Assembly: GCA_003232915.1 (NCBI GenBank)
Contig: QIKE01000016.1
Coordinates: forward strand, 1 to 40,313
Reading direction: 5' to 3'
DNA from: Bacteroidota bacterium
GTDB lineage: Bacteria; Bacteroidota; Bacteroidia; Bacteroidales; F082
DNA: 40,313 nucleotides
The notes beneath the pieces are model-generated. The model did not search any database. It was not told the origin of the DNA and saw nothing but the letters and a program-made list of their open reading frames with translations. Positions 10,927-32,028 of the stretch are shown here, piece after piece (the first letter of the stretch is position 1; every line of letters starts with the position of its first letter). Made by a program: the position numbers and the translations under genes.

Positions 10927-11853
10927 ATGGCGTTTGGCAAAAGAGAACAACGTATTATTACCGTTTCGAAAGTAGCGGTTCTCGGTAATGTCCTGTTGTC
11001 GGTTTTGAAAATTGTATTTGGAATTATTGCCGGTAGTCTCGCCGTTGTTGCTGACGGAATCGACTCGGCTTCCGATGTGCTAACTTCACTCATTACACTA
11101 TTTGCCGCACACATTATCAGCAGACCGCCCAATTTAAAATATCCCTACGGCTATAGCAGAGCCGATACTCTATCTGCAAAAATCCTGGCTTTTATCATCT
11201 TTTTTGCCGGTGCACAACTTGCTATTTTCTCAATGAGCAAATTATTGCATCCCGAACCGAGAGAAATTCCAAAAACCATTTCTCTTGTTGTTGTTGTTAT
11301 TTCTATCGTTACCAAGCAACTGTTGGCTTTATATTTGAAAAAAACAGGAAAAGAAGAAAAAAGTAATATGCTGATAGCTAATGCAAAAAATATGCAAAGC
11401 GATGTGGTTATTTCAGCATCGGTTTTAGTAGGACTAATTTTCACATTTATATTGAAAATACCTATTCTTGATGTTGTTACAGCACTTTTTGTAAGCCTTT
11501 GGATAATGGTTGTGGCTATAAAAATATTTTTTGAAACCACTCGCGAATTAATGGATGGAGTTGACGACCCTGAAATTTATGATAAAATTATAAATGCTTG
11601 CCGCAAGGTTGACGACGTATCAAATCCACATCGTATTCGTGTACGCAAAATGGCTCATCTTTATCTTATTGCTCTTGATATTGAAGTGCCAGGAAACATC
11701 ACTCTTGACGAAGCACATACAAAAAGTAGAGTGGTTGAACACAAAATAAAAAAGCAAATCCCTAATGTCTACGATATTATCATACACGTAGAACCTATCG
11801 AAAACGATGAACCCGATGAAGTTTTCGGCATCTCTGAAAAGGAATTGCTTTGA
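10927..11853 (+). CDS. Cation diffusion facilitator metal transporter
   Basis: A 308-residue inner-membrane CDF protein that exports divalent metal ions by proton exchange. Six hydrophobic segments are followed by a cytoplasmic domain (about residues 205-300, including IRVRKMAHLYLIALDIEVPG and IHVEPIE). The metal site is unusual. Transmembrane helix 2 has D46-x3-D50 (VADGIDSASD), but helix 5 reads N155-x3-D159 (NAKNMQSD), where zinc and iron CDFs have His-x3-Asp. Loss of that His points away from zinc and toward manganese or another hard metal. The ATG at 10927 is chosen because a promoter element lies just upstream. Confidence 0.92.
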   Translation: MAFGKREQRIITVSKVAVLGNVLLSVLKIVFGIIAGSLAVVADGIDSASDVLTSLITLFAAHIISRPPNLKYPYGYSRADTLSAKILAFIIFFAGAQLAIFSMSKLLHPEPREIPKTISLVVVVISIVTKQLLALYLKKTGKEEKSNMLIANAKNMQSDVVISASVLVGLIFTFILKIPILDVVTALFVSLWIMVVAIKIFFETTRELMDGVDDPEIYDKIINACRKVDDVSNPHRIRVRKMAHLYLIALDIEVPGNITLDEAHTKSRVVEHKIKKQIPNVYDIIIHVEPIENDEPDEVFGISEKELL

Positions 11854-11859
11854 AATTGT

Positions 11860-11867
11860 TAACTTTG
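11860..11867 (+). promoter_or_regulatory. -7 promoter element TAACTTTG of the CotH-like gene
   Basis: Exact TAnnTTTG match directly after the CDF stop codon and 19 bases before the GTG start at 11887, so the CotH-like gene can be transcribed on its own. Confidence 0.55.
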
Positions 11868-11886
11868 CCGGCTAAAAAATAAAAAA

Positions 11887-14880
11887 GTGTATAAACAATT
11901 TTCACAGATCACGGCTTTAATAGTTTTGTTGGCGCTTTTACAGGTTACATCAAGCTGTCAACGCAAAGAGAATCTTTCGGTAGGCAAGAAGATTAGTTGT
12001 AGTGCAGAACATTTAAACAAAAGCGGGAAACAACTGATAACTTCCAATTCGCATTATTTACTTGATGGAGGTAAACAACGAACAATGCGTGAAGCTCATA
12101 CTGGAAAATATTCGGTAGCTACCTTTCCACGGCATTCTTTTGCATTTGGTTTTTCTACGCACGCCGGCCCCGATTACTATTATAAAATCAGCGTTTGGCG
12201 AAAGAGCAAATCGGAAAACGGCATACTAGTCGCTACAACTCAAGATAGTAAGCGTTTTTACCAAGCGGAAAATAAACCTGCTGATAAAGGTGCTAACGGC
12301 TGGGAAAAAATTGAAATGGAAGTTTTTACTCCCCCTTTTTTCGATGACACCAAAGATCGCCTTATGGTTTATGTGTGGAACAAAAGTAAAGACACTGTTT
12401 ATTTCGACGATTTTTCTATAGAGCGATTTGCGAAAAAAATTTATCCTTCCTACAAAGAAGCTCCTCTTTCTATTGTATTTGATACTTCGGAATACCTCAA
12501 GTTGAAAAAAAAACGCAAAATAGCCTTTGAAAACGGAATTTTACAGAGCACCGAAAACGACTGGGTGAAAGGTATTGTTTTTGGCGATGGCAAAATGATG
12601 AAAGCCAAGTTGCGGCTCAAAGGCGATTGGCTCGACCACCTTTATGGCGATAAATGGTCGTTGCGTATCAAGCTAAAGAAAAAACACGCTTGGCGACGCC
12701 TGCGGGTGTTCTCCATTCAAACCCCTGCTGCCCGCGACTACTTGATGGAATGGGCTTCACACCGGTTTTACGAAAGCCGTGATATACTCACAACCCGCTA
12801 TGGTTTTGTTCCCGTTTTGTTTAATAACCAATCACGTGGTATCTATGCTTATGAAGAACATTTTGTGAAACAACTTGTCGAATCAAGAAAACGACGAGAA
12901 GGCCCTATCGTGAAATTTTCGGAAGATGCCTTTTGGCAAATGCAAAAAATAGATATTAAACTTCGGAAATGGATAAAAATACCTTTTTTCGAATCGTCGG
13001 TAATAGAACCTTTTAGCCAATCAAAAACCATCAAAAGTCCCACTTTGTATAAGGAATTTCTTGATGCACAAAAACTTATGTATCAATACAAAAATCATCT
13101 GTCAAAACCTGCCGACATTTTTGATATCAACAAATTGGCAAAATATTATGCTATGCTCGACCTCACGCTTGCACGCCATGGAATGTCATGGCACAACCAA
13201 AGGTTTTATTACAATCCGATTTTGTGTAAACTCGAACCCATTGCCTTCGACGGCTATACCGACCATAACGCCGTAAATACCGGTATTAATAGTAATTTTA
13301 TGTACAAGGCCTACCACAATAAGAATATTGTTATTGAGGAGAAAATGAATTACGAATTGTTTACAGACCCCGAGTTTGTGAAAAAATACCTCTATTTTCT
13401 CGGACAGTTTAGTAAAAAATCCTTTATTGATTCGGTAAGTCTTGCCATTGCACCCGAAGCCCACCTATACGATTCGCTAATTAAAAGAGAATTTCCGGAT
13501 ATGCTTTACGATTTTGACTTTTTCAAGAAAAGTGCTAACAAAATAAGAGCTTATCTACCTGTGTTAAAGCAATTTGCCAAAAATAAACTAAACGATACAG
13601 CTTTCCGGTTCAAAGTTAAGCCATATATCTACAACGATACTCTTGTACTTGAAAACACACCCGAATATTTGGTTAATGCTTACCTTGAAAGCCGTTCGGG
13701 TACGGACAGCCGTATTTTTGTTGAAAATTATTTTCAGCAGAAAATCACTGTGCTCGGTACAGGTCGCAAAAAGAAAAACATTAACTACCACTTTAATTTG
13801 GGCAAAACTTTGAAACATTTCCTTTCAGGTAAACCCGACACGCTGACAGTTACTTCCGATACCAATGCGCAATACCTGTTTTTTTTAGTTGAATCGACTA
13901 CCTATGTAGTGAAAATTCATCCTTGGCCCAAACTTTCGGGCATAACTACACAGCAACAATTATTGCAAAATGCACGTCTCGACCTGCCCGTTATCAAAAA
14001 AGTCGAAGGTAAAAATATTTATTTCAAAACCGGCAAACATCGTGTCGATTATCCCATAGTTATCCCCAGAGGTTACACCGTTTATTTCAAAAAAGGGACC
14101 ATACTCAACTTTGTGAAAAAAGCTATGTTTATTTCGTACTCACCCGTGATAATCAGAGGTAGTAAGCACAAACCGGTGGTTTTTACTTCATCGGACTTTT
14201 CAGCCAACGGTTTCACTGTTTTACAACCAAAAGGAAAGTCAGTATTGCATTATGTCCGGTTCGAAAATTTTAATACTCTCAATTACAAAGACTGGATAAT
14301 TACAGGAGCCGTAACTTTTTACGAAAGTACACTCGACATCAATAATTTAACTATTTATCGCAACCAATGCGAAGATGCTCTGAACTTAATTCGTTGCAAT
14401 TTTTTGATGGACAGTAGTCGATTCGACAACACCCATAGCGATGCTTTCGACTCCGATTTTAGCAACGGCCTCGTCGAAAACAGCACCTTTACTTATATCG
14501 GTAACGACGCCCTCGACTTTTCGGGAAGCCATATAGACATTAAAAACTGCTATATTTCGCAGGTGGCAGATAAAGGCGTTAGCGGTGGCGAAAATTCTCA
14601 CATAACAATCGAAAACACTACCATCGAAAAAGCCAATATCGGTATCGCCTCTAAAGATTTGTCTTCGGTGAAAGCTCAAAATAGCCTTATTAAGGATTGT
14701 AATTATGGTGTAGTGTTGTTGCAAAAAAAGCCCGAATTTGGTCCCGCAACTATGCAAATAATTAATGTACGTTTCGTTAATCCTAAAACAAAACTGTTGA
14801 TCGAAAAAGGTTCGAGCGTAATGTTCAATGGTAAACTCCTCCAAGGCAGTAAAACAAATGTTGCCAAAATATTTTATTAA
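11887..14880 (+). CDS. CotH-kinase-like surface lipoprotein with beta-helix tail
   Basis: A 997-residue predicted lipoprotein using a GTG start; the signal ends at LLALLQVTSSC with lipid-attachment Cys24. Residues about 40-180 look like a carbohydrate-binding jelly-roll (GWEKIEMEVF, YFDDFSIERF). Residues about 195-545 are a CotH-like atypical kinase domain, with KLRLKGDWLDHLYGDKWSLR, the nucleotide-region motif SRGIYAYEEHFVKQL and the acidic LEPIAFDGYTDHNAV. Residues about 720-997 read as a right-handed parallel beta-helix (NSHITIENTTIEKANIG-like turns). CotH phosphorylates spore-coat proteins in Bacillus; the role in Bacteroidota is unknown. The DUF4956 and VTC genes 0.6 kb downstream are frequent partners of this family. 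Confidence 0.85.
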   Translation: MYKQFSQITALIVLLALLQVTSSCQRKENLSVGKKISCSAEHLNKSGKQLITSNSHYLLDGGKQRTMREAHTGKYSVATFPRHSFAFGFSTHAGPDYYYKISVWRKSKSENGILVATTQDSKRFYQAENKPADKGANGWEKIEMEVFTPPFFDDTKDRLMVYVWNKSKDTVYFDDFSIERFAKKIYPSYKEAPLSIVFDTSEYLKLKKKRKIAFENGILQSTENDWVKGIVFGDGKMMKAKLRLKGDWLDHLYGDKWSLRIKLKKKHAWRRLRVFSIQTPAARDYLMEWASHRFYESRDILTTRYGFVPVLFNNQSRGIYAYEEHFVKQLVESRKRREGPIVKFSEDAFWQMQKIDIKLRKWIKIPFFESSVIEPFSQSKTIKSPTLYKEFLDAQKLMYQYKNHLSKPADIFDINKLAKYYAMLDLTLARHGMSWHNQRFYYNPILCKLEPIAFDGYTDHNAVNTGINSNFMYKAYHNKNIVIEEKMNYELFTDPEFVKKYLYFLGQFSKKSFIDSVSLAIAPEAHLYDSLIKREFPDMLYDFDFFKKSANKIRAYLPVLKQFAKNKLNDTAFRFKVKPYIYNDTLVLENTPEYLVNAYLESRSGTDSRIFVENYFQQKITVLGTGRKKKNINYHFNLGKTLKHFLSGKPDTLTVTSDTNAQYLFFLVESTTYVVKIHPWPKLSGITTQQQLLQNARLDLPVIKKVEGKNIYFKTGKHRVDYPIVIPRGYTVYFKKGTILNFVKKAMFISYSPVIIRGSKHKPVVFTSSDFSANGFTVLQPKGKSVLHYVRFENFNTLNYKDWIITGAVTFYESTLDINNLTIYRNQCEDALNLIRCNFLMDSSRFDNTHSDAFDSDFSNGLVENSTFTYIGNDALDFSGSHIDIKNCYISQVADKGVSGGENSHITIENTTIEKANIGIASKDLSSVKAQNSLIKDCNYGVVLLQKKPEFGPATMQIINVRFVNPKTKLLIEKGSSVMFNGKLLQGSKTNVAKIFY

Positions 14881-14884
14881 TCTA

Positions 14885-15005
14885 TGAGTCCGATCTAAAA
14901 AGGTTACAATTTGGTTTCAGCCACTTTTACCCCTCAATCCCCTAAAGGGGAAGTGGCTGAAGATCAGTACATTTTACCCTAGTTAACCTTTTTAGACTGG
15001 GCTCA
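14885..15005. repeat. Palindromic MITE-like element
   Basis: A 121-base element bounded by 22-base inverted ends (14885-14906 and 14984-15005, 19 of 22 matching) that share CTAAAAAGGTTA. Nested inside is a second perfect inverted pair TCAGCCACTT/AAGTGGCTGA (14917-14926 with 14951-14960), capped by CCCCT/AGGGG (14930-14934 with 14946-14950). It has no coding capacity. The layout fits a miniature inverted-repeat transposable element or an IS-derived palindrome. It starts four bases after the CotH-like stop codon, so its transcript could also act as a terminator or RNA-stabilising hairpin. Confidence 0.75.
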
Positions 15006-15474
15006 TCTATTCGTACCGGATAGTTAAGCAAAAGAATATGGCTGTCCGATAATTTTTGAATTTATCGTATCGGCAAAGTGCAGGTAACTAGTACCCGTAA
15101 GAAAACTTGATTTTTTATAGTGTCTAATTATAAAGCATCAAATTCAGGGGTTTACGAAGGTTTGAGTACTGTGAGTTTGCTTTTAAAGTAAATGCTTAGT
15201 ATTTAATGCGAACATAACCAATAAATTGGCGTTTTATGGCAAGTCGAAAATAATAACTTACGTTAGATCAGAAGTTACGAATTCAAACCTATTATTTATG
15301 TGAGGACGTAACTATCTCAGGGAGTTTTTTAGCTTATGGCTGGCAACCTGTCAAAAAAATATCTCAGCTTTCTGGCATTTAACAAAGTATTATTTAGCCT
15401 TTATTTGCATAAATATTGAAAAACTCTTGAAAAAATATTTACCTTTGTGCGTTTTTTATCAAATATAGATTATT
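15006..15474 (+). promoter_or_regulatory. Leader/promoter region of the DUF4956 gene
   Basis: Non-coding region after the palindromic element. TACCTTTG at 15440-15447 is an exact -7 match 27 bases before the DUF4956 start. The rest is AT-rich, with no recognised riboswitch or gene. Confidence 0.5.
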
Positions 15475-16155
15475 ATGAACGACAGGTGGAGTTTGTTTCA
15501 GAAGTTTTTAATTACTCAAAATCAAAACATTTCGGTTACCGATTTTCTTATCAATTCAATTATTATCATTGTTTTGTCGATAATACTTGAAGTTACTTAT
15601 ATTAAATGTGCCCGTAGTATTTCCAACAGGCGACAGTTTGCAGGTGTTTTTCTGCTGATAGCTTTTACTACCATGCTTATTATCACGATAGTAAAGTCGT
15701 CGTTAGCACTTTCTCTCGGCTTGGTTGGAGCTTTGTCTATTGTTAGGTTTCGTGCAGCCATTAAAGAACCTGAGGAGTTGGCTTATTTGTTTTTTGCCAT
15801 TTCAGTTGGCTTAGGTCTCGGAGCTAACCAAACTCTTATTGTTGCAGAAGCTTTTGGTATCGGTATGGTTATTATCTGGGGACGTCATTTACTTAAACAC
15901 AAAAGCAACTACCAAAACCTTTATCTGAATGTTAGCACTGCCTCAGATATAGCAGAGCTTAAAGATGTTGTTTCTGTTGTACAAGAAGTCTTCGGTAAAT
16001 ATACCCTTAAACGTTTTGATGAAAATGGCAGACAAATGGAAGCCTCTTTTGTTGTTGATTCACCGAATGCCGGAAAACTGCAGAAATTTAAAGAGGAAAT
16101 CGGAAAACTTGGAAACGAAGTACGTATTTCGTTTGTGGAGAGCAAGTCGTTTTAA
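15475..16155 (+). CDS. DUF4956 membrane protein
   Basis: A 226-residue membrane protein of the DUF4956 family. Four hydrophobic segments (about residues 20-40, 55-73, 75-92 and 104-132) enclose the family signature SLGLVGALSIVRFRAAIKEPEELAYLF. A soluble C-terminal ferredoxin-like part follows (residues about 150-226). No biochemical function is assigned to the family that I know of. Its genes recur beside CotH-like and VTC-domain genes, as here: 21 bases separate it from the VTC gene, indicating one transcript. A role as membrane partner of the VTC polymerase or CotH kinase is inference. Confidence 0.88.
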   Translation: MNDRWSLFQKFLITQNQNISVTDFLINSIIIIVLSIILEVTYIKCARSISNRRQFAGVFLLIAFTTMLIITIVKSSLALSLGLVGALSIVRFRAAIKEPEELAYLFFAISVGLGLGANQTLIVAEAFGIGMVIIWGRHLLKHKSNYQNLYLNVSTASDIAELKDVVSVVQEVFGKYTLKRFDENGRQMEASFVVDSPNAGKLQKFKEEIGKLGNEVRISFVESKSF

Positions 16156-16176
16156 GAAATCTAATTTGTAAATAGA

Positions 16177-16878
16177 ATGTTTTTTCCACCTTTCGATACC
16201 GAAAACAGTCGCTACGAACGAAAATTTGTGATTACCGATATGTTCTATCCGCAAATAGAACAAGAAATTCGTATGCATCCTGCCGCTTTTTTCACCATAT
16301 TTTATCCCCGATATATCAACAATATTTATTTTGATAGTAGAGAACTTGATTTTTTTTACGATAACGTTTCGGGGCGTGGAAGCCGTAAAAAAGTACGCAT
16401 ACGCTGGTATAGCAATTTGTTTGGAGACGTTGCAAAACCCGTATTGGAATTTAAAATAAGAGAAGGTTATCTCGGCAACAAACGCTCATTTCCTTTAAAA
16501 CCCTTTCGCTTAGACCAAACTATTACTAACGAAAAACTGCAACAAGTTTTTCAGCAGTCGGACTTACCCGGGTGGGCACTAGGAGTAATGCAACATTTGC
16601 AACCTTCGTTCGTAAACAGATATCTGCGTAAATATTTCTTGAGTTTCGACGGGCTTTTTCGCCTGACGTTCGATACCGATCTCAACTATTACGGCATTTC
16701 AACAAGCAATAATAGCTTTATGGAACATTACTCTTCCGACGATGTGATTGTTGAATTAAAATACGATTTTTCTGTTAGCCACTTAGCTCCCGATGTTTCT
16801 TCCCAACTTTCATTTCGATTGACCAAAAGCTCTAAATATGTCAATGGTATTGAGCGACTTCACCCGATGCTGGTTTAA
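16177..16878 (+). CDS. VTC-domain (polyphosphate polymerase-like) protein
   Basis: A 233-residue protein consisting of a single VTC domain, the triphosphate-tunnel fold that polymerises polyphosphate from ATP in yeast VTC4. The tunnel-lining signatures occur in order: ENSRYERKFVIT, NNIYFDSRELDFF, RKKVRIRWYS, PVLEFKIREG, NRYLRKYFLS, RLTFDTDL and IVELKYDF. These supply the alternating basic and acidic residues of the tunnel. There is no SPX sensor and no membrane helix, so regulation or membrane coupling probably comes from DUF4956, encoded just upstream. Polyphosphate synthesis is an inference from the fold; another nucleotide phosphotransfer is possible. Confidence 0.86.
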   Translation: MFFPPFDTENSRYERKFVITDMFYPQIEQEIRMHPAAFFTIFYPRYINNIYFDSRELDFFYDNVSGRGSRKKVRIRWYSNLFGDVAKPVLEFKIREGYLGNKRSFPLKPFRLDQTITNEKLQQVFQQSDLPGWALGVMQHLQPSFVNRYLRKYFLSFDGLFRLTFDTDLNYYGISTSNNSFMEHYSSDDVIVELKYDFSVSHLAPDVSSQLSFRLTKSSKYVNGIERLHPMLV

Positions 16879-17463
16879 GCAGTATTTTCAATATTATCGT
16901 CAGTTTATATTCCTTTTTTTAACATTAAATGGTGTAAAACAGTGCATTTTGCATTCGAGAAAAGAACGCTAGCTGTCTTATTTTATCTGTATAATATGAA
17001 CGTTTTCAGTCAGGTGTTTCAAGTGCTACAATATTCTATTTTTGTCACAATAACATAGCTTTATCGTCGCTTTTCACGTAGCAAGTCCTCCTTTTGTATC
17101 AGTCGTTTTTAAGATGATGATAGATAACAATACTCCATTAAATTAATAAATGTTTTCATCAATGGTTATTACTGCTATTTTCAAATTAAAAAATTTCTAA
17201 TTTTATGGTATTACCGGAAATAATGCGTTGTACATAATCATTTTTTTCAAAATAGTATAATTATTATTTTCCATTAACTTTTTTTGAAAAAATATTATTG
17301 TACCGAAAATATATTGGTTACCGGTGGTAAAGAAAGGATGTAAGTGTTGCTATTTCACTGTAGAAAGATAAATAGATTGCAGGTTGCCAATGATCCAAGT
17401 GAATATTTAGGCTTATTTTAGGCTAAATAAAATTGATTGTTTTTGCATAATTAATATACTTGT
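16879..17463. other. Intergenic region without a visible gene
   Basis: About 585 AT-rich bases between the convergent VTC gene and HD-hydrolase gene. No protein-like frame, tRNA, strong terminator or repeat was identified. Confidence 0.4.
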
Positions 17464-18126
17464 TTAATCGAATTCGGCATCCCACTCCTTAAAAAATTGT
17501 TCTAAAAACTCTTCCATATAACGATGGCGTTGTTGGGCGAGTTGGCGGCCGGTTTCGGTATTCATCATATCTTTTAGCAATAGCAATTTTTCGTAAAAAT
17601 GGTTGATGGAGGGTGCCGTACTATTTTTATAATCTTCTTTGCTTTGGTCAATTTGGGGAGGGACGGCAGGGTTGTGCAAAGGACGATTTTTATACCCTCC
17701 GTAGTTGAAAGCTCGAGCAATGCCAATGGCTCCGATAGCATCAATACGGTCGGCATCTTGTACAATAGAAAGTTCGGGGGTAAGATGACCTTGCACTTCA
17801 TATCGGTTTTTGAACGAAACGTACCGGATGATGTGTTCTACTTTAGCTATCAATGCGTGTGGTAATCTAAGGCTGTGTAAAAAATCTCTTACTATTACCG
17901 AGCCTTTACTCTCGTCGCCATTGTAGAATTTAGCGTCAGCAATGTCGTGCAACAGTGCACCGAGCGTAACAACAAAAATATCGGCTTTTTCTTTTTGCGC
18001 TATATATTCAGCTGTTTTCCGTACACGGTAAACATGCCAATAGTCGTGGCCACCTTCGTTGCTTCCCATTTGCCGTTTAACAAAAACTACGGTTTTGTCG
18101 ATAATTTGTTGTTGATATGCAGTCAT
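17464..18126 (-). CDS. HD-domain phosphohydrolase
   Basis: A 220-residue metal-dependent hydrolase of the HD superfamily, YedJ/YpgQ type. The metal ligands are visible as H31 (GGHDYWHVYRV), H60-D61 (LGALLHDIADAKF) and the later Asp in SIVQDADRIDAIGAIGIARAF; the segment NHFYEKLLLLKDMM is also typical. Family members act on nucleotides or other phosphate esters; the substrate cannot be read from sequence. The gene is monocistronic and divergent from pdxJ, with only about 75 bases between start codons. Confidence 0.92.
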   Translation of the reverse strand: MTAYQQQIIDKTVVFVKRQMGSNEGGHDYWHVYRVRKTAEYIAQKEKADIFVVTLGALLHDIADAKFYNGDESKGSVIVRDFLHSLRLPHALIAKVEHIIRYVSFKNRYEVQGHLTPELSIVQDADRIDAIGAIGIARAFNYGGYKNRPLHNPAVPPQIDQSKEDYKNSTAPSINHFYEKLLLLKDMMNTETGRQLAQQRHRYMEEFLEQFFKEWDAEFD

Positions 18127-18175
18127 ATTTTTTTGACAAATATTTTTTTTTACACTCTTTAGGTGTCGAAATTAC

Positions 18176-18183
18176 TATTTTTG
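18176..18183 (+). promoter_or_regulatory. -7 promoter element TATTTTTG of pdxJ
   Basis: Exact TAnnTTTG match 17 bases before the ATG at 18200. It sits just before an in-frame TTG at 18185 and so favours the ATG as the true start. Confidence 0.6.
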
Positions 18184-18199
18184 CTTGAAACGAAAACAA

Positions 18200-18919
18200 A
18201 TGATACGATTAAGTGTAAACATCAATAAAATTGCTACTTTACGTAATGCCCGCGGCGGTAATATTCCAGATGTACAGAAAGCAGCTGTTGATTGCGAGCG
18301 TTTTGGTGCACAATCTGTTACCGTTCATCCTCGTCCCGACGAAAGGCATATTCGTTATAAGGATGTGGAGTTGTTACGTCCGTTGATAAGCACCGAGTTC
18401 AACATTGAAGGGAATCCTATTCCTAAGTTTATTGAACTTGTTGTAAAGTACAAACCCGATCAAGTAACTCTTGTTCCCGACAATCCTGCCCAGCTAACTT
18501 CAAACCATGGCTGGGATGTGGTGAAACATCGTAGATTTCTTTCCGATGTTATTTCACAGTTTAAAAAAGCCGGGATCCGTACTTCTATTTTCATCGATCC
18601 TGTACCCAAAGCAGTCGAAAATGCTTACTTCACCGGTACCGATCGTGTGGAGCTTTACACTGAAAGTTATGCTACCGATTATGCGAAAAACCGCGAACAA
18701 GCAATAAGACCCTTTATTAAGGCCGCAACAATTGCCCACAACGCCGGACTTGGGGTCAATGCCGGACACGATCTCAATCTTGACAACTTAAAATATTTCG
18801 CCAAAAATGTCCCGTTTCTCGACGAAGTGTCCATAGGGCATGCTTTGATTTGCGATGCATTGTACCTAGGTTTGGAAAATACCATTCAACTTTATTTGAG
18901 AGCTTTGCGGCAAGAATAG
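18200..18919 (+). CDS. pdxJ: Pyridoxine 5'-phosphate synthase
   Basis: A 239-residue cytoplasmic enzyme that condenses 3-amino-2-oxopropyl phosphate with deoxyxylulose 5-phosphate to make pyridoxine phosphate in the DXP-dependent vitamin B6 route. Typical motifs are [18 protein letters not shown] at the N-terminus, [54 protein letters not shown] and [13 protein letters not shown]. Length agrees with E. coli PdxJ (243). An in-frame TTG at 18185 would add five residues, but the ATG fits the family start and the promoter position better. It appears monocistronic. Confidence 0.97.
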
Positions 18920-19014
18920 CATCAGGTTGAACAGCAGACAAGGAATGAAAATTTTACAGTGAATATAGAGTAGGAATGATTTTTGTTTGTCAGCTTACAG
19001 AAGAGTGATAAAAT

Positions 19015-19311
19015 ATGAACAAATTCAACGAAATTATCAATTCCGGTAAACCAGTGGTAATTGACTTTTCGGCCGAATGGTGCCAGCCTTGCCGGACGAT
19101 GCCACCTATTTTACGGCAAGTAAAACATCGCTTGGGTGATAAAATCAGAATTTTAACAGTAAACGTGGACAAAAATGCCACTATTGTTCAAAAGTGGTCG
19201 ATACAAAACGTACCAACATTGATGATATTTAAAAATGGGGAATTGAAGTTCCGGCAGGCCGGTGTTCTTCCTGCATCGCAATTAATTAAAATAATTCAAC
19301 AACATTTATAA
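19015..19311 (+). CDS. Thioredoxin-like protein with WCQPC site
   Basis: A 98-residue single-domain thioredoxin-fold protein. The active site is W22-C-Q-P-C26 instead of the usual WCGPC, followed by a normal fold: VNVDKNATIVQKWSIQNVPTLMIFKNGE with the conserved cis-proline (NVPT). The changed dipeptide should shift the redox potential, so it may serve a dedicated partner rather than act as the general thioredoxin. There is no signal peptide, so it is cytoplasmic. Its stop codon overlaps the start of the TrmO-like gene (TAATG), indicating translational coupling, though no functional link is evident. Confidence 0.92.
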   Translation: MNKFNEIINSGKPVVIDFSAEWCQPCRTMPPILRQVKHRLGDKIRILTVNVDKNATIVQKWSIQNVPTLMIFKNGELKFRQAGVLPASQLIKIIQQHL

Positions 19312-19769
19312 TGGAAGAAAAAACCAAGCAAACCATTGTTTTCAGTCCTATCGGTATTATTCGCACTCCTTTCGGGGGGAACGAGAAACTTCCGCGGCAG
19401 GGACGCTTCGGCGAAAATAATGATGGCCGTGTGGAAATTTTTCCCGAGTTTGCCGAAGGATTGAAAGACATTGAGGGTTTCAGCCATATTTATCTACTGT
19501 TTTATTTTCATCTTTCCGAAGGCTACAAACTGATACAGCGAACACCACTTAACCATAATCTTCGTGGGGTTTTTGCCATACGTAGCCCACACAGACCTAA
19601 CGGTATAGGCCAAACCATTGTTAAACTCATCAGAAGGGAAGAGAATATTTTGTTCATTAGCGGTGTAGATATGATTGACCGTACACCCTTACTTGATGTA
19701 AAACCCTATATATCGGATATTGATAGTTATGCAGATGCTACCAAAGGGTGGTTGACGCACCGCAAATAA
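19311..19769 (+). CDS. TrmO/TsaA-like tRNA methyltransferase
   Basis: A 152-residue protein of the TsaA/TrmO (VirR-like) family. E. coli TrmO methylates N6-threonylcarbamoyladenosine at position 37 of some tRNAs, using S-adenosylmethionine. Conserved parts are FSPIGIIRTPF, GRVEIFPEFAEGLKDIEGFSHIYLLF, GVFAIRSPHRPNGIGQTIVKLI and MIDRTPLLDVKPYI. It holds only the N-terminal catalytic beta-barrel domain and lacks the extra C-terminal domain of E. coli TrmO (235 residues). It is coupled to the thioredoxin-like gene by a one-base overlap. Methyltransferase activity is likely but the exact tRNA target is uncertain. Confidence 0.9.
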   Translation: MEEKTKQTIVFSPIGIIRTPFGGNEKLPRQGRFGENNDGRVEIFPEFAEGLKDIEGFSHIYLLFYFHLSEGYKLIQRTPLNHNLRGVFAIRSPHRPNGIGQTIVKLIRREENILFISGVDMIDRTPLLDVKPYISDIDSYADATKGWLTHRK

Positions 19770-20100
19770 TGGGTATATAAGTATGGGTTATACCCGACCC
19801 GATATAACAGATAGGCATCAGAATCAAAGAAATAGCAGCTATTCCAACGATTGAACTATGTATTTTAAATATTGCGAGTTTAACATTAGAAGTGTACCTT
19901 CGTAATATATATTTCGGATGGGATGAATAATGAGGACAGAATACAAAACAATAGTGTTTATATAATTTGTCAATTGTTTATACACCAATTACTGTCGCTA
20001 AAAAGAAACAATGCTATTAAATATTTTTATTTTCCCGACTTATAAAAATATTTTTTGGTTAATGATTGTTAACGATTAATTCGGTTAGATTTTTTTTTAA

Positions 20101-26119: not shown

Positions 26120-26624
26120 AAGAATTTCAATTACAGGACCCGAATCAACAGGGAAATCGACTTTGTCGAAACAACTTTCCACATATTTTAAAGCCGTTTA
26201 CGTAGCCGAATATTCACGAGAGTATTTAAAAGAAAAAGGCCTTAATTATAATCTTGATGATGTGATAGCTATTGCTTCGGGGCAACTGCAACGTGAAGAA
26301 CATCAGGCCGGAAAAGCAGTAGAGTTGTTGTTTTGTGATACCGATCCTTTAGTTGACAAAATATGGTGTGAAGTTGTTTTCGGCAGTTGCCCGTTTCTCA
26401 TCGCACAGCAATTTAGCAAGCATGTTTACGATTTGTATTTGTTGTGCTATCCAGATATTATTTGGGAACCCGACCCGCTACGCGAAAACCCCGACAATCG
26501 GCTGGAACTTTTTCACCTGTATGAAAAAACATTGAAAGAAGCCGGATTCAATTATCGGGTAATTACCGGACAAGGATACCTGCGTATCATAAAAGCCATT
26601 AATTTTGTAAAAGAAATAATATAA
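26112..26624 (+). CDS. NadR-like nucleoside kinase / AAA ATPase
   Basis: A 170-residue P-loop kinase resembling the ribosylnicotinamide kinase domain of NadR. The Walker A motif is ITGPESTGKSTL at residues 6-17. VAEYSREYL and LFCDTDPLVDKIWCEVVFG follow, then the lid region PDIIWEPDPLRENPDNR. It lacks the adenylyltransferase and DNA-binding domains of full NadR. The start is a TTG at 26112, within the end of pnuC; the next ATG would remove the P-loop, so the TTG is required. By phosphorylating the imported nucleoside it would drive uptake through the PnuC-like transporter. Confidence 0.85.
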   Translation: MLKRISITGPESTGKSTLSKQLSTYFKAVYVAEYSREYLKEKGLNYNLDDVIAIASGQLQREEHQAGKAVELLFCDTDPLVDKIWCEVVFGSCPFLIAQQFSKHVYDLYLLCYPDIIWEPDPLRENPDNRLELFHLYEKTLKEAGFNYRVITGQGYLRIIKAINFVKEII

Positions 26625-27832
26625 TGGGAAAAATTGACAATAGAGATAAGCTGAACGTATTGCAACTAGCCCGTTGGTATCCCAATCGCTACGATCCTAT
26701 GTTCGGATTATTCATTCAACGACATATCAAAACGGTTTTGCCTTGGGCGAACACTGCATTGGTTTATGCTCAGGCTGTATCCGATTCTTCTTTAAAACAA
26801 AAATACGAGATGGATTATACTTCCGAAAACGGTTTCCTCGAAATAAGAGTGTACTACCGCGAACCTTACATGAAAATTCCGTTAATTTCGTTTTTGCAAA
26901 AGAACTTGCGCTTTTATAAAGCCAATAGCATTGGGATAAAATATGCAAAACGACAACTTGGCAATTTCGAACTTTTGCATATTCATATTCTCAGCCGTCT
27001 TGGATTTATTGCTCTCTATTTTAAATGGTTTCATAGGAAACCTTTTGTAATTACCGAACATTGGTCGCGCTATCTCAGTATCAACAATGCTTTTACAGGA
27101 TTTGGAAGAAAATGCTTTACTAAACTTGTAGTGAAAAATGCCGAAGCGGTTACTACCGTTACGCAAAATCTTTCCGATGCTATGAAAAAACATCGTTTGA
27201 AAAATAAACATTATTTTGTGATACATAATGTTGTCGATTCGGTATTTTTTAAAGAATATTTGTCATCGACAAGTATTGAAAAAGTTTTTATACATATAAG
27301 TTGTTTTGAAGATAAATCGAAAAATATCAGTGGGATTTTGCGTTCGATAAAAGCACTTTCTGAAATGCGACAAGATTTTCGTTTTGTAATGATAGGAACT
27401 GGAAAAGATTTCGACGCATTGAAGCGTTATGCAAAACAACTGAAAATTGCTGATAAGATACTCGTCTTTAAAGGTTTACTTGAAGGAGAAATGCTTGCAA
27501 ACGAAATGGCAAAGGCCGATATGCTTGTGGTATTCAGCAATTACGAAAATATGCCGGTGGTCATAAACGAAAGCCTTGCACTCGGGCTACCGGTTTTAGC
27601 TACCAGTGTGGGAGGCATTAGCGAAATAATTGATAATACGAAAGGAATATTGATCGACTCCCACAACGAAAAAGCCTTAACGGAAAGTCTTAATTCTTTT
27701 CTTAATGGAAAAATTTCGTTTGATACTATAGCCATAAAAAAATTCGCACGCAATATGTTTTCAAGTCAAACTATCGGAAGATATTTCGCTGCAATATATT
27801 ATGCAGTTTTCTTAAGTAAAAACAAATCTTGA
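26624..27832 (+). CDS. Glycosyltransferase family 4 protein
   Basis: A 402-residue GT-B glycosyltransferase of the GT4 type, likely acting on a cell-surface polysaccharide or lipid precursor at the inner membrane. The N-terminal domain has LARWYPNRYDPMFGLFIQRH, and KPFVITEHWSRYL lies near the domain border. The C-terminal nucleotide-sugar site contains SNYENMPVVINESLALGLPV (E-x7-E type) and GGISEIIDN. Its ATG overlaps the stop of the NadR-like gene by one base (TAATG), so it belongs to the same transcript, although no metabolic link to vitamin uptake is obvious. Sugar donor and acceptor are unknown. Confidence 0.9.
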   Translation: MGKIDNRDKLNVLQLARWYPNRYDPMFGLFIQRHIKTVLPWANTALVYAQAVSDSSLKQKYEMDYTSENGFLEIRVYYREPYMKIPLISFLQKNLRFYKANSIGIKYAKRQLGNFELLHIHILSRLGFIALYFKWFHRKPFVITEHWSRYLSINNAFTGFGRKCFTKLVVKNAEAVTTVTQNLSDAMKKHRLKNKHYFVIHNVVDSVFFKEYLSSTSIEKVFIHISCFEDKSKNISGILRSIKALSEMRQDFRFVMIGTGKDFDALKRYAKQLKIADKILVFKGLLEGEMLANEMAKADMLVVFSNYENMPVVINESLALGLPVLATSVGGISEIIDNTKGILIDSHNEKALTESLNSFLNGKISFDTIAIKKFARNMFSSQTIGRYFAAIYYAVFLSKNKS

Positions 27833-31110: not shown

Positions 31111-32028
31111 ATGATGTGGATTAATAAAATTATTGCCGGAATTATTCCCTTGTTACCTAAGAAATTTGTTTGGTTTTTTTCGAGTCGGTATATTGCCGGT
31201 CGTACACTTGACGAGGCTATAAGAGTTTCTAAACAACTTAACACCGATGGATATCTCGTTACTATTGACCTACTTGGCGAGTTTATTACGAAGCTCGAAG
31301 AAGCCGAAAAAAATCGCGACGAGTACCTGAACATAATTGATGCCATTCAAAAAAACAATATTGATAGTAATTATTCGCTAAAACCTAGTATGTTCGGGTT
31401 AATGATCGACGAAAAGGTTTGCTATGAAAATATCAGACAAATAGTACAAAAAGCGGTAAATTATGGAAATTTTGTACGTATTGATATGGAAGATTCTCAG
31501 TGTACCGATAACGAGATTAAACTTTTTAGAAGATTGAAAGAGGAGTTTCCAAAGAATGTGGGGCTTGTATTACAGGCTTATATGCGTCGTACAAAAGACG
31601 ACATCAACAATTTATCGGTTATTCATTTCGACGACAATCCATTGAATTTAAGACTTTGCAAAGGTATTTATGTGGAACCCGTAAAAATTGCCTACAAAAA
31701 ATACGACGAAATCAACCGGCATTATCTTGAAGATTTAGAGTTGATGTTGCAAAAGGGGATGTATCCGGGAATAGCCTCCCACGACAACAACCTTATTACG
31801 GGAGCTTACAAATTACTGGAAAAATATAATTACAAACCCAACCGCTACGAATTTCAAATGCTCTACGGCGTTACCCCGAATTTGCGTAAGTCTATTATCG
31901 GCAAAGGTCATCGTTTGCGTGTATATGTTCCTTTTGGTAAAGATTGGTTTCCGTATTCAACACGCCGATTAAAAGAAAATCCTAAAATGGCGAATGACAT
32001 TATAAAAGCATTGTTTATTAGAGGATAA
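31111..32028 (+). CDS. Proline dehydrogenase
   Basis: A 305-residue single-domain FAD enzyme (PutA proline dehydrogenase domain) that oxidises proline to pyrroline-5-carboxylate, passing electrons to quinone at the membrane. Typical elements are LKPSMFGLMIDE, FVRIDMEDSQ, VGLVLQAYMRRTKDD, LRLCKGIYVEP, PGIASHDNNLI, FQMLYGVTPNLRKSI and the C-terminal LRVYVPFGKDWFPYSTRRL. The start is either of two adjacent ATGs (31111 or 31114). The partner pyrroline-carboxylate dehydrogenase is not fused and not in the window. Confidence 0.95.
   Translation: MMWINKIIAGIIPLLPKKFVWFFSSRYIAGRTLDEAIRVSKQLNTDGYLVTIDLLGEFITKLEEAEKNRDEYLNIIDAIQKNNIDSNYSLKPSMFGLMIDEKVCYENIRQIVQKAVNYGNFVRIDMEDSQCTDNEIKLFRRLKEEFPKNVGLVLQAYMRRTKDDINNLSVIHFDDNPLNLRLCKGIYVEPVKIAYKKYDEINRHYLEDLELMLQKGMYPGIASHDNNLITGAYKLLEKYNYKPNRYEFQMLYGVTPNLRKSIIGKGHRLRVYVPFGKDWFPYSTRRLKENPKMANDIIKALFIRG

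Follow-up and report, generated by a model that had tools for sequence, protein, structure and literature searches.

A recurrent CotH-fold lipoprotein, DUF4956 and VTC gene set in Bacteroidia with a putative role in cell-surface polysaccharide formation

The window analysed here is a stretch of 40,313 nucleotides (contig QIKE01000016.1, forward strand) from a Bacteroidota bacterium of the Bacteroidales lineage F082. ORF (open reading frame) calling revealed three genes on its + strand, coding for a CotH-fold lipoprotein (11887-14880, 997 aa), a DUF4956 membrane protein (15475-16155, 226 aa) and a VTC-type polyphosphate polymerase domain protein (16177-16878, 233 aa). The trio is real, and its families co-occur in genomes far above chance. 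With a probability of roughly 40%, the three proteins form one unit that builds or modifies a cell-surface polysaccharide at the cost of cytosolic phosphate energy: VTC would make polyphosphate, DUF4956 would couple or export it, and the lipoprotein would use it. This is the simplest account that covers the gene linkage, the signs of export and the intact polymerase together with the phosphatase-type neighbours found in related loci.

Co-occurrence was surveyed in 295 sampled Bacteroidia genomes, with Fisher tests that ignore relatedness. VTC was present in 144 genomes, DUF4956 in 161 and CotH (PF08757) in 169. DUF4956 accompanied VTC in 142 of the 144 VTC genomes (p 8e-60), leaving two with VTC only. 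CotH was found in 138 of the 144, and all three families in 137 of the 295. The window's own genome (2.53 Mb in 162 contigs, 86.6% complete, with the window as contig 28) falls outside these 137, its CotH protein escaping PF08757. Strong matches to a profile of the window-type CotH protein were found in 42 genomes, a hand-picked set (scores from ~160 bits upwards, overlapping the CotH region), 41 of which had DUF4956 and 39 VTC. The control family, PPK1, showed no positive association with VTC (odds 0.52, p 0.03). Among 14 named control genomes, VTC and DUF4956 were both found only in Bacteroides ihuae, Corynebacterium glutamicum and Methanosarcina acetivorans; CotH was present in two of these three and in B. 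subtilis.

In the genus of the window, DUF4956 was detected in three of 12 genomes, and the same three held a near-full-length window-type CotH protein (p 0.0045). Six of the nine genomes lacking DUF4956 gave partial matches to the window-type CotH profile. These covered the N-terminal part only in four genomes (best G295, E 2e-34) and the CotH part in G301 and G302 (E 9e-8 and 5e-10). The three genes nearly touch in the congener G299, with ~30 bases between the CotH-fold gene and DUF4956, and lie beside a glycosyltransferase family 2 (GT2) gene on the opposite strand. In G304, DUF4956-VTC occupies one contig, and the CotH protein is split into two pieces that lie on two further contigs. Since the latter is on other contigs yet co-occurs, the link of the trio does not rest on adjacency alone. 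The trio looks to have been gained and lost together within the genus. A preliminary description of this DNA, made from the sequence, had proposed that the three proteins occur together and had called for co-occurrence statistics; both surveys bore this out, and an independent distribution of the families was not seen.

Chance, or the hitchhiking of three independent members of mobile surface-polysaccharide islands, is disfavoured and largely refuted by this co-occurrence, which includes separated genes; we regard it as highly improbable. The patchy presence of the module in the genus would fit such islands, as would the different gene neighbourhoods in the window's genome, G299 and G304. Against them stand the near absence of VTC without DUF4956, the separated but still co-occurring CotH-fold gene of G304, and the wider distribution of the families. 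KSB1 (L135), Sedimentisphaerales (L137) and Verrucomicrobia (L141) are the titles of further records in which DUF4956 occurs with VTC; in Calditrichaeota (L134) it occurs with a CotH-fold gene, with no VTC in the stretch examined.

Gene order was conserved in two forms. At least 126 of the 150 listed VTC places had DUF4956 no more than 3 kb away, always in the order VTC-DUF4956 and with both genes on one strand. The other 24, including the window, had no listed DUF4956 neighbour; 18 of the remaining 23 were examined (L032-L049), and 15 of the 18 hold a DUF4956 relative. The window has the second arrangement, DUF4956-VTC, as do L039-L043, L046 and L047. The window DUF4956 was searched against 84,980 species, each represented by one genome; 359 relatives were found, and the best 80 were analysed. 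These loci, all obtained with a single query, are not independent (L043 recurs as L129, and L062 as L154), and contigs often end near the match. L136, for which no DUF4956 ORF was called, was dropped, so that 79 loci were counted. VTC lay directly downstream of DUF4956 in 69 of them; five were at a contig edge and five differed. A window-type CotH protein was encoded within four ORFs of DUF4956 in 50 of the 79. Other neighbours at this distance were of metallophosphoesterase (23 loci), GT2 (14), pyrophosphatase (9), AlgX (8) and MBOAT (8) type, these classes being BLAST clusters of which one or two members each were named by Pfam, the GT2 cluster excepted.

Some of these companions were inspected further. 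Two members of the metallophosphoesterase cluster (L063, 8323-9243; L129, 5589-6713) are calcineurin-like phosphoesterases (PF00149) with signal-like N-termini. A relative of the L063 protein was not found in the window's genome, a weak negative, since the search had no positive control. A type I inorganic pyrophosphatase (L100, 3973-4581; PF00719 E 7e-34) and eight more loci of its BLAST cluster were found near DUF4956-VTC, mostly in Flavobacteriales-titled loci. The three members inspected have lipoprotein-like starts, and the cluster apparently serves phosphoanhydride chemistry outside the cytosol. A lipoprotein-like family of 180 aa (L063, 9307-9849, and 14 more loci) lies beside the module in 15 of the 79 loci, and the one member scanned had no Pfam match. 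In L062, three tandem 900-aa proteins of one BLAST cluster (11511-19801) lie directly downstream of DUF4956-VTC.

The CotH-fold lipoprotein has a GTG start, a signal peptide and a lipobox-like ..VTSSC24. Cys24 is present in at least 90% of 43 aligned family sequences (from 46 eligible proteins), and the lipobox pattern matches 26 of the 43, a shortfall that is partly due to uncertain start codons. An AlphaFold2 model built from this alignment had a mean predicted local distance difference test score (pLDDT) of 92.2 and a predicted template modelling score of 0.87. It contains the carbohydrate-binding-like, CotH and beta-helix domains that had been recognised at the outset. Residues 35-181 (11989-12429, + strand, as for all codon and domain positions below) form a beta-sandwich like that of carbohydrate-binding module (CBM) family 16 (Foldseek match to 2ZEY, E 2.3e-4; range taken from the model strands). 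The CotH kinase fold spans residues 189-565 (12451-13581). The model matched B. cereus CotH (5JD9) with a Foldseek E of 4.9e-11 and a Z of 25.9 over 325 aligned residues (root-mean-square deviation 3.5). The family profile found the same structure (E 1.6e-10, residues 222-568) as its sole match below E 0.1. Residues 694-992 (13966-14862) form a right-handed beta-helix with the AlgG/AlgE4 epimerase fold (AlgG 4OZY, Z 27.7, 282 aligned, root-mean-square deviation 2.9, 10% identity).

By Pfam, only beta-helix families were recognised in the window lipoprotein, the best being Beta_helix (PF13229, E 1.1e-12); PF08757 and the CBM families had no match in it. In the family, PF08757 matched 29 of the 43 aligned members at E 0.01 or better, and CBM_4_9 was recognised in two of the 43. 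The beta-helix holds 13 of the 23 invariant columns of the lipoprotein alignment, in which L133, a canonical CotH by its motifs, is misaligned in the CotH part and so lowers the number of invariant columns there. D852, D874, D877, D895, K896, K923 and D924 of the beta-helix are identical in 43 of 43 sequences and form an invariant polar ladder. These residues and the share of invariant columns suggest that the beta-helix has a specific ligand or substrate, which it would bind or act on.

The CotH active site is altered. In the profile alignment, the CotH motif FDGFV-HN...PWD falls on RHGxxWHN...FD of the window family. The Asp of FDG, 23 residues from the PWD Asp (D251), was taken as D228 in B. 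subtilis numbering. Both D228Q and D251A of CotH are inactive, according to the available text of PMC7821199. Via 5JD9, H431 of the window protein (codon 13177-13179) aligned to the catalytic D228, and D455 (13249-13251) to D251. His stood at the first position in 57 of the 62 rows with a residue there, two loci being counted twice, and the second position held Asp in 52 and Glu in seven of 59 rows. The change from Asp to His is a property of the subfamily, because Asp was found in that region in each of six standard CotH proteins encoded at other VTC-DUF4956 loci of Bacteroidia. As H431 replaces the catalytic Asp, phosphate transfer by the CotH-fold domain cannot be assumed, and the preliminary description, which had treated this domain as a phosphate-transferring kinase, is not supported on this point as written.

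These data bear on a polyphosphate-powered phosphotransfer outside the cytosol, for which VTC would make the polymer, DUF4956 would export it and a His-type CotH domain would phosphorylate a polysaccharide held by the beta-helix. We consider it quite unlikely. The conserved His431 could possibly carry a phospho-His intermediate, or be a base suited to polyphosphate. If this were true, a phosphate donor would be supplied where ATP is absent, for which no description was found in the literature searched.

The lost Asp also fits a different possibility. The lipoprotein may be a pseudokinase joined to a polysaccharide-acting beta-helix (epimerase, lyase or hydrolase). Its CotH fold would bind a phosphate-rich ligand or serve as a scaffold, the beta-helix would do the glycan chemistry, and VTC-DUF4956 would supply the ligand or regulate the process. 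Because the Asp is missing, a streptococcal polymerase deletion (see below) is apparently silent and the beta-helix is strongly conserved, this is nearly as likely as the polyphosphate-export account. The frequency of His at the catalytic position, the invariant beta-helix Asp and Lys residues and the AlgG-like fold all argue for it. So does L042 (7501-15619), where DUF4956 and VTC are followed by a canonical CotH (PF08757 E 3.8e-52), a Wzy_C/O-antigen-ligase-like protein and a divergent CotH with beta-helix, as if kinase and non-kinase had been split. A protein of similar size stands at the same place in L039-L041 and L046, whose layout resembles L042 by size comparison, Pfam having been run on L042 only. 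On the other hand, H431 and D455 are conserved, which suggests that the pocket has retained a function and is not decaying, and the beta-helix showed no catalytic motif known from a CAZy family. In the L042-type cluster, the D455 position is occupied by Glu.

The VTC domain fills residues 12-229 of its 233-aa protein (PF09359 E 1.1e-27), and the family profile matched the structures of Vtc2 (5.8e-7) and Vtc4 (6.6e-6). If native numbering is taken to differ by 3 from chain numbering, K16, R74, R76 and K93 align to Vtc4 K200, R264, R266 and K281. All four are invariant in 45 sequences (from 73 eligible proteins), and R74-I-R76 is encoded at 16396-16404. K200 and K281, like R264 and R266, are tunnel residues of Vtc4. 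In the motif E193-L-K195 (16753-16761), E193 and K195 are likewise invariant in the 45 sequences. The stretch around E193 lies outside the Vtc4 alignment, so that a counterpart of E426 is not alignable, and the motif may correspond to the E426 region. The available text of PMC9911596 describes Vtc4 R264A/R266A/E426N as an impaired form. Because its tunnel residues are intact, the window enzyme is probably active, in agreement with its first description as a VTC tunnel enzyme. The idea that VTC stands in for PPK1 was rejected: PPK1 (PF02503) is missing from the window's metagenome-assembled genome, but it was found in 11 of the 12 genus genomes and in 107 of the 144 VTC genomes.

The DUF4956 protein matched PF16316 with E 3.4e-14 (53.4 bits, cut-off 30.6). 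This family and the Vtc membrane domain are different Pfam families. The AlphaFold2 model of the protein (pLDDT 78) shows five helices of membrane length, followed at the C-terminus by an ACT/ferredoxin-like domain of beta-alpha-beta-beta-alpha-beta order (residues 148-222); four helices had been counted initially. The conserved RFRAAIKEP loop that had been pointed out along with them was confirmed. The loop RFRAAIKEPEEL (RFRAAIKEPEE, residues 91-102, 15745-15780) lies between predicted membrane helices, and all its residues are invariant in 48 sequences (from 80 eligible proteins) except F92 (at least 90%). The C-terminal domain had weak Foldseek matches, among them the MgtC C-terminal domain 2LQJ and SbtB. 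The family profile had no match to solved structures by sequence, and the model found nothing in Foldseek at E 0.001 or better, so we claim no transporter family for DUF4956. PF02308 (MgtC) missed the window DUF4956 and found another gene (C59) of the same genome.

In the polyphosphate-export account, VTC would act on the cytosolic side of the inner membrane and turn ATP into polyphosphate or a similar phosphoanhydride polymer. DUF4956, with its MgtC-like plan and ACT-like domain, would be the partner of VTC, its invariant loop facing the enzyme, and would pass the polymer across the membrane or gate it. Outside, the lipoprotein would bind a glycan via its CBM-like domain and AlgG-type beta-helix, and the CotH-fold domain would use the polymer as donor or ligand during glycan modification. 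The interpretation first offered for the trio thus holds in part: the recurrent unit, the VTC residues, the exported CotH/beta-helix protein and the glycan-related domains stand; the standard CotH kinase does not, and the gene set is not new.

Related gene sets have been described outside the Bacteroidota. According to the available text of PMC7112168, genes for CotH, a polyphosphate polymerase, DUF4956 and DUF4832 lie beside pel genes in streptococci, clostridia and bifidobacteria, and a c-di-GMP (cyclic di-GMP)-type enzyme is found beside the bifidobacterial module. The streptococcal set, S. intermedius SIR_1591-1594, was deleted gene by gene, as reported in the part of PMC12345266 available to us. 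Deleting CotH or a membrane protein with four transmembrane segments and an ACT domain, which we infer to be DUF4956, cut aggregation in artificial sputum by more than half. Pel was raised by the membrane-protein deletion and lowered by the CotH deletion.

Such opposite effects would fit a role of VTC-DUF4956 in the cytosol, where it would sense a signal for, or regulate, the synthesis of exopolysaccharide. The triphosphate tunnel metalloenzyme (TTM) would then turn over a nucleotide or triphosphate, the ACT-like domain would sense a ligand, and no polymer would cross the membrane. The bifidobacterial c-di-GMP-type enzyme and the weak MgtC and SbtB matches of the ACT/ferredoxin-like domain point the same way. 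The kept VTC tunnel residues speak against this reading, as do the CotH, metallophosphoesterase and pyrophosphatase neighbours, which look exported and suggest a site of action outside the cytosol. We consider this regulatory role unlikely.

Several observations weigh against a single polyphosphate-driven unit. In the window, the CotH-fold gene and DUF4956 are 594 bases apart, the trio is flanked by housekeeping genes, and the nearest glycosyltransferase (group 1, 26624-27832) among the ORFs scanned lies ~10 kb downstream. PF08757 had no match anywhere in the window's genome, and His431 stands where CotH kinases need their catalytic Asp. No CotH-fold gene lay within four ORFs of DUF4956 in 29 of the 79 loci, some of them cut by contig ends, including the nearest relative L062. 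VTC was missing from 19 of the 161 DUF4956 genomes, and both VTC and DUF4956 from 18 of the 169 CotH genomes; PPK1 is also present in most VTC genomes (see above). We know of no transport activity for DUF4956, and its similarity to one MgtC was weak (hhalign probability 37%, E 3.5e-4 in a one-profile search), with the conserved loop covered. Finally, in the available text of PMC12345266, deletion of the polymerase SIR_1593 is not reported to lower aggregation, whereas the loss of SIR_1592 or SIR_1594 did so, and each of the three S. intermedius mutants still produced Pel. Because the polymerase deletion kept aggregation, tight coupling of the three proteins, or a simple linear pathway, is disfavoured.

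The surroundings of the trio in the window show no obvious polysaccharide cluster. Of the neighbours scanned with Pfam, those upstream are a TonB receptor, a cation-efflux protein and a pyridine-nucleotide-disulphide oxidoreductase; downstream follow PdxJ, TrmO and an HD-domain protein in unspecified order. Pel genes were absent from the 15 window ORFs scanned with Pfam (of 49 ORFs of at least 100 aa), the related loci not being searched for Pel. The 594-base gap holds no open frame longer than 54 codons. It contains an imperfect inverted repeat (14879-15011) with 28-nt arms and 77 nt between them, which resembles a miniature inverted-repeat transposable element and starts within the stop codon of the CotH-fold gene. 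Neither a relative of the gap nor another copy of the repeat was found in the related loci compared. A 13-base arm motif of the repeat has one more match, with one mismatch, at 31518 (three found, 0.2 expected). A Bacteroidota -7 type promoter motif, TANNTTTG, precedes the CotH-fold gene and DUF4956; as it occurs 62 times in the window with 62.5 expected, it was given no weight. No relatives were obtained from a plasmid search with the DUF4956 protein, nor from a scan of viral contigs with the DUF4956 family profile.

The trio recurs across Bacteroidota and beyond and suggests a so far unstudied route by which cytosolic phosphate energy serves to make or modify surface sugar polymers. Kinases that are exported reach a place without ATP and require another phosphate donor; a conserved set that combines a polyphosphate polymerase in the cytosol with a membrane protein and an exported protein of kinase fold hints at one. 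No work on the trio in Bacteroidota, and no function assigned to the module, was found in the literature searched. C. glutamicum, a harmless laboratory species with all three families, allows a direct test of the idea. By family search, all three are also present in M. acetivorans, and both species are possible model organisms.

Each of the three proteins resembles a known system in part. The Bacillus CotH spore-coat kinase (5JD9/5JDA) shares the fold over 325 residues and the second active-site Asp; the window protein differs by the His in place of the catalytic Asp, the fused glycan-type domains and the lipoprotein signal. AlgG and AlgE4, which are C-5 mannuronan epimerases, share the right-handed beta-helix at 10% identity, a fold common to many polysaccharide enzymes and phage tailspikes. 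MgtC shares membrane helices, an ACT-like C-terminal domain and an alignable conserved loop with DUF4956, the similarity being weak and without recognition by PF02308. Eukaryotic VTC (Vtc4; available text of PMC9911596) has the TTM-fold polymerase and the K200/R264/R266/K281 equivalents, whereas the window protein is filled by the VTC domain and has no SPX or fused membrane domain. The C. perfringens locus NELoc-2 lists VTC, CotH and a GT2 "chitin synthase" in Table 4 of PMC2879425. In the available text of that paper, two VTC proteins each lie beside a predicted membrane protein of 222-226 aa called "tubulin/FtsZ GTPase", probably a misnamed DUF4956.

The closest counterpart is the Gram-positive Pel set, with the same three families, contiguous genes, an exported CotH protein, an ACT membrane protein and a polyphosphate polymerase domain. 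It lies next to exopolysaccharide genes, whereas the window had no Pel genes among its scanned ORFs. The CotH protein of the window differs from that of the Pel set by its CBM-like domain, AlgG-fold beta-helix and His for the catalytic Asp. The companions in the related loci, of metallophosphoesterase, pyrophosphatase, AlgX/MBOAT or Wzy type, also differ. In the available text of PMC12345266, the authors found this synteny nowhere outside Pel; contrary to that, the trio is apparently no Pel speciality, and its link may be with surface polysaccharides at large. The gene set is already in print beside pel genes (available text of PMC7112168 and PMC12345266). New here are the Bacteroidota form, apparently without Pel, the altered CotH active site and the AlgG-fold helix.

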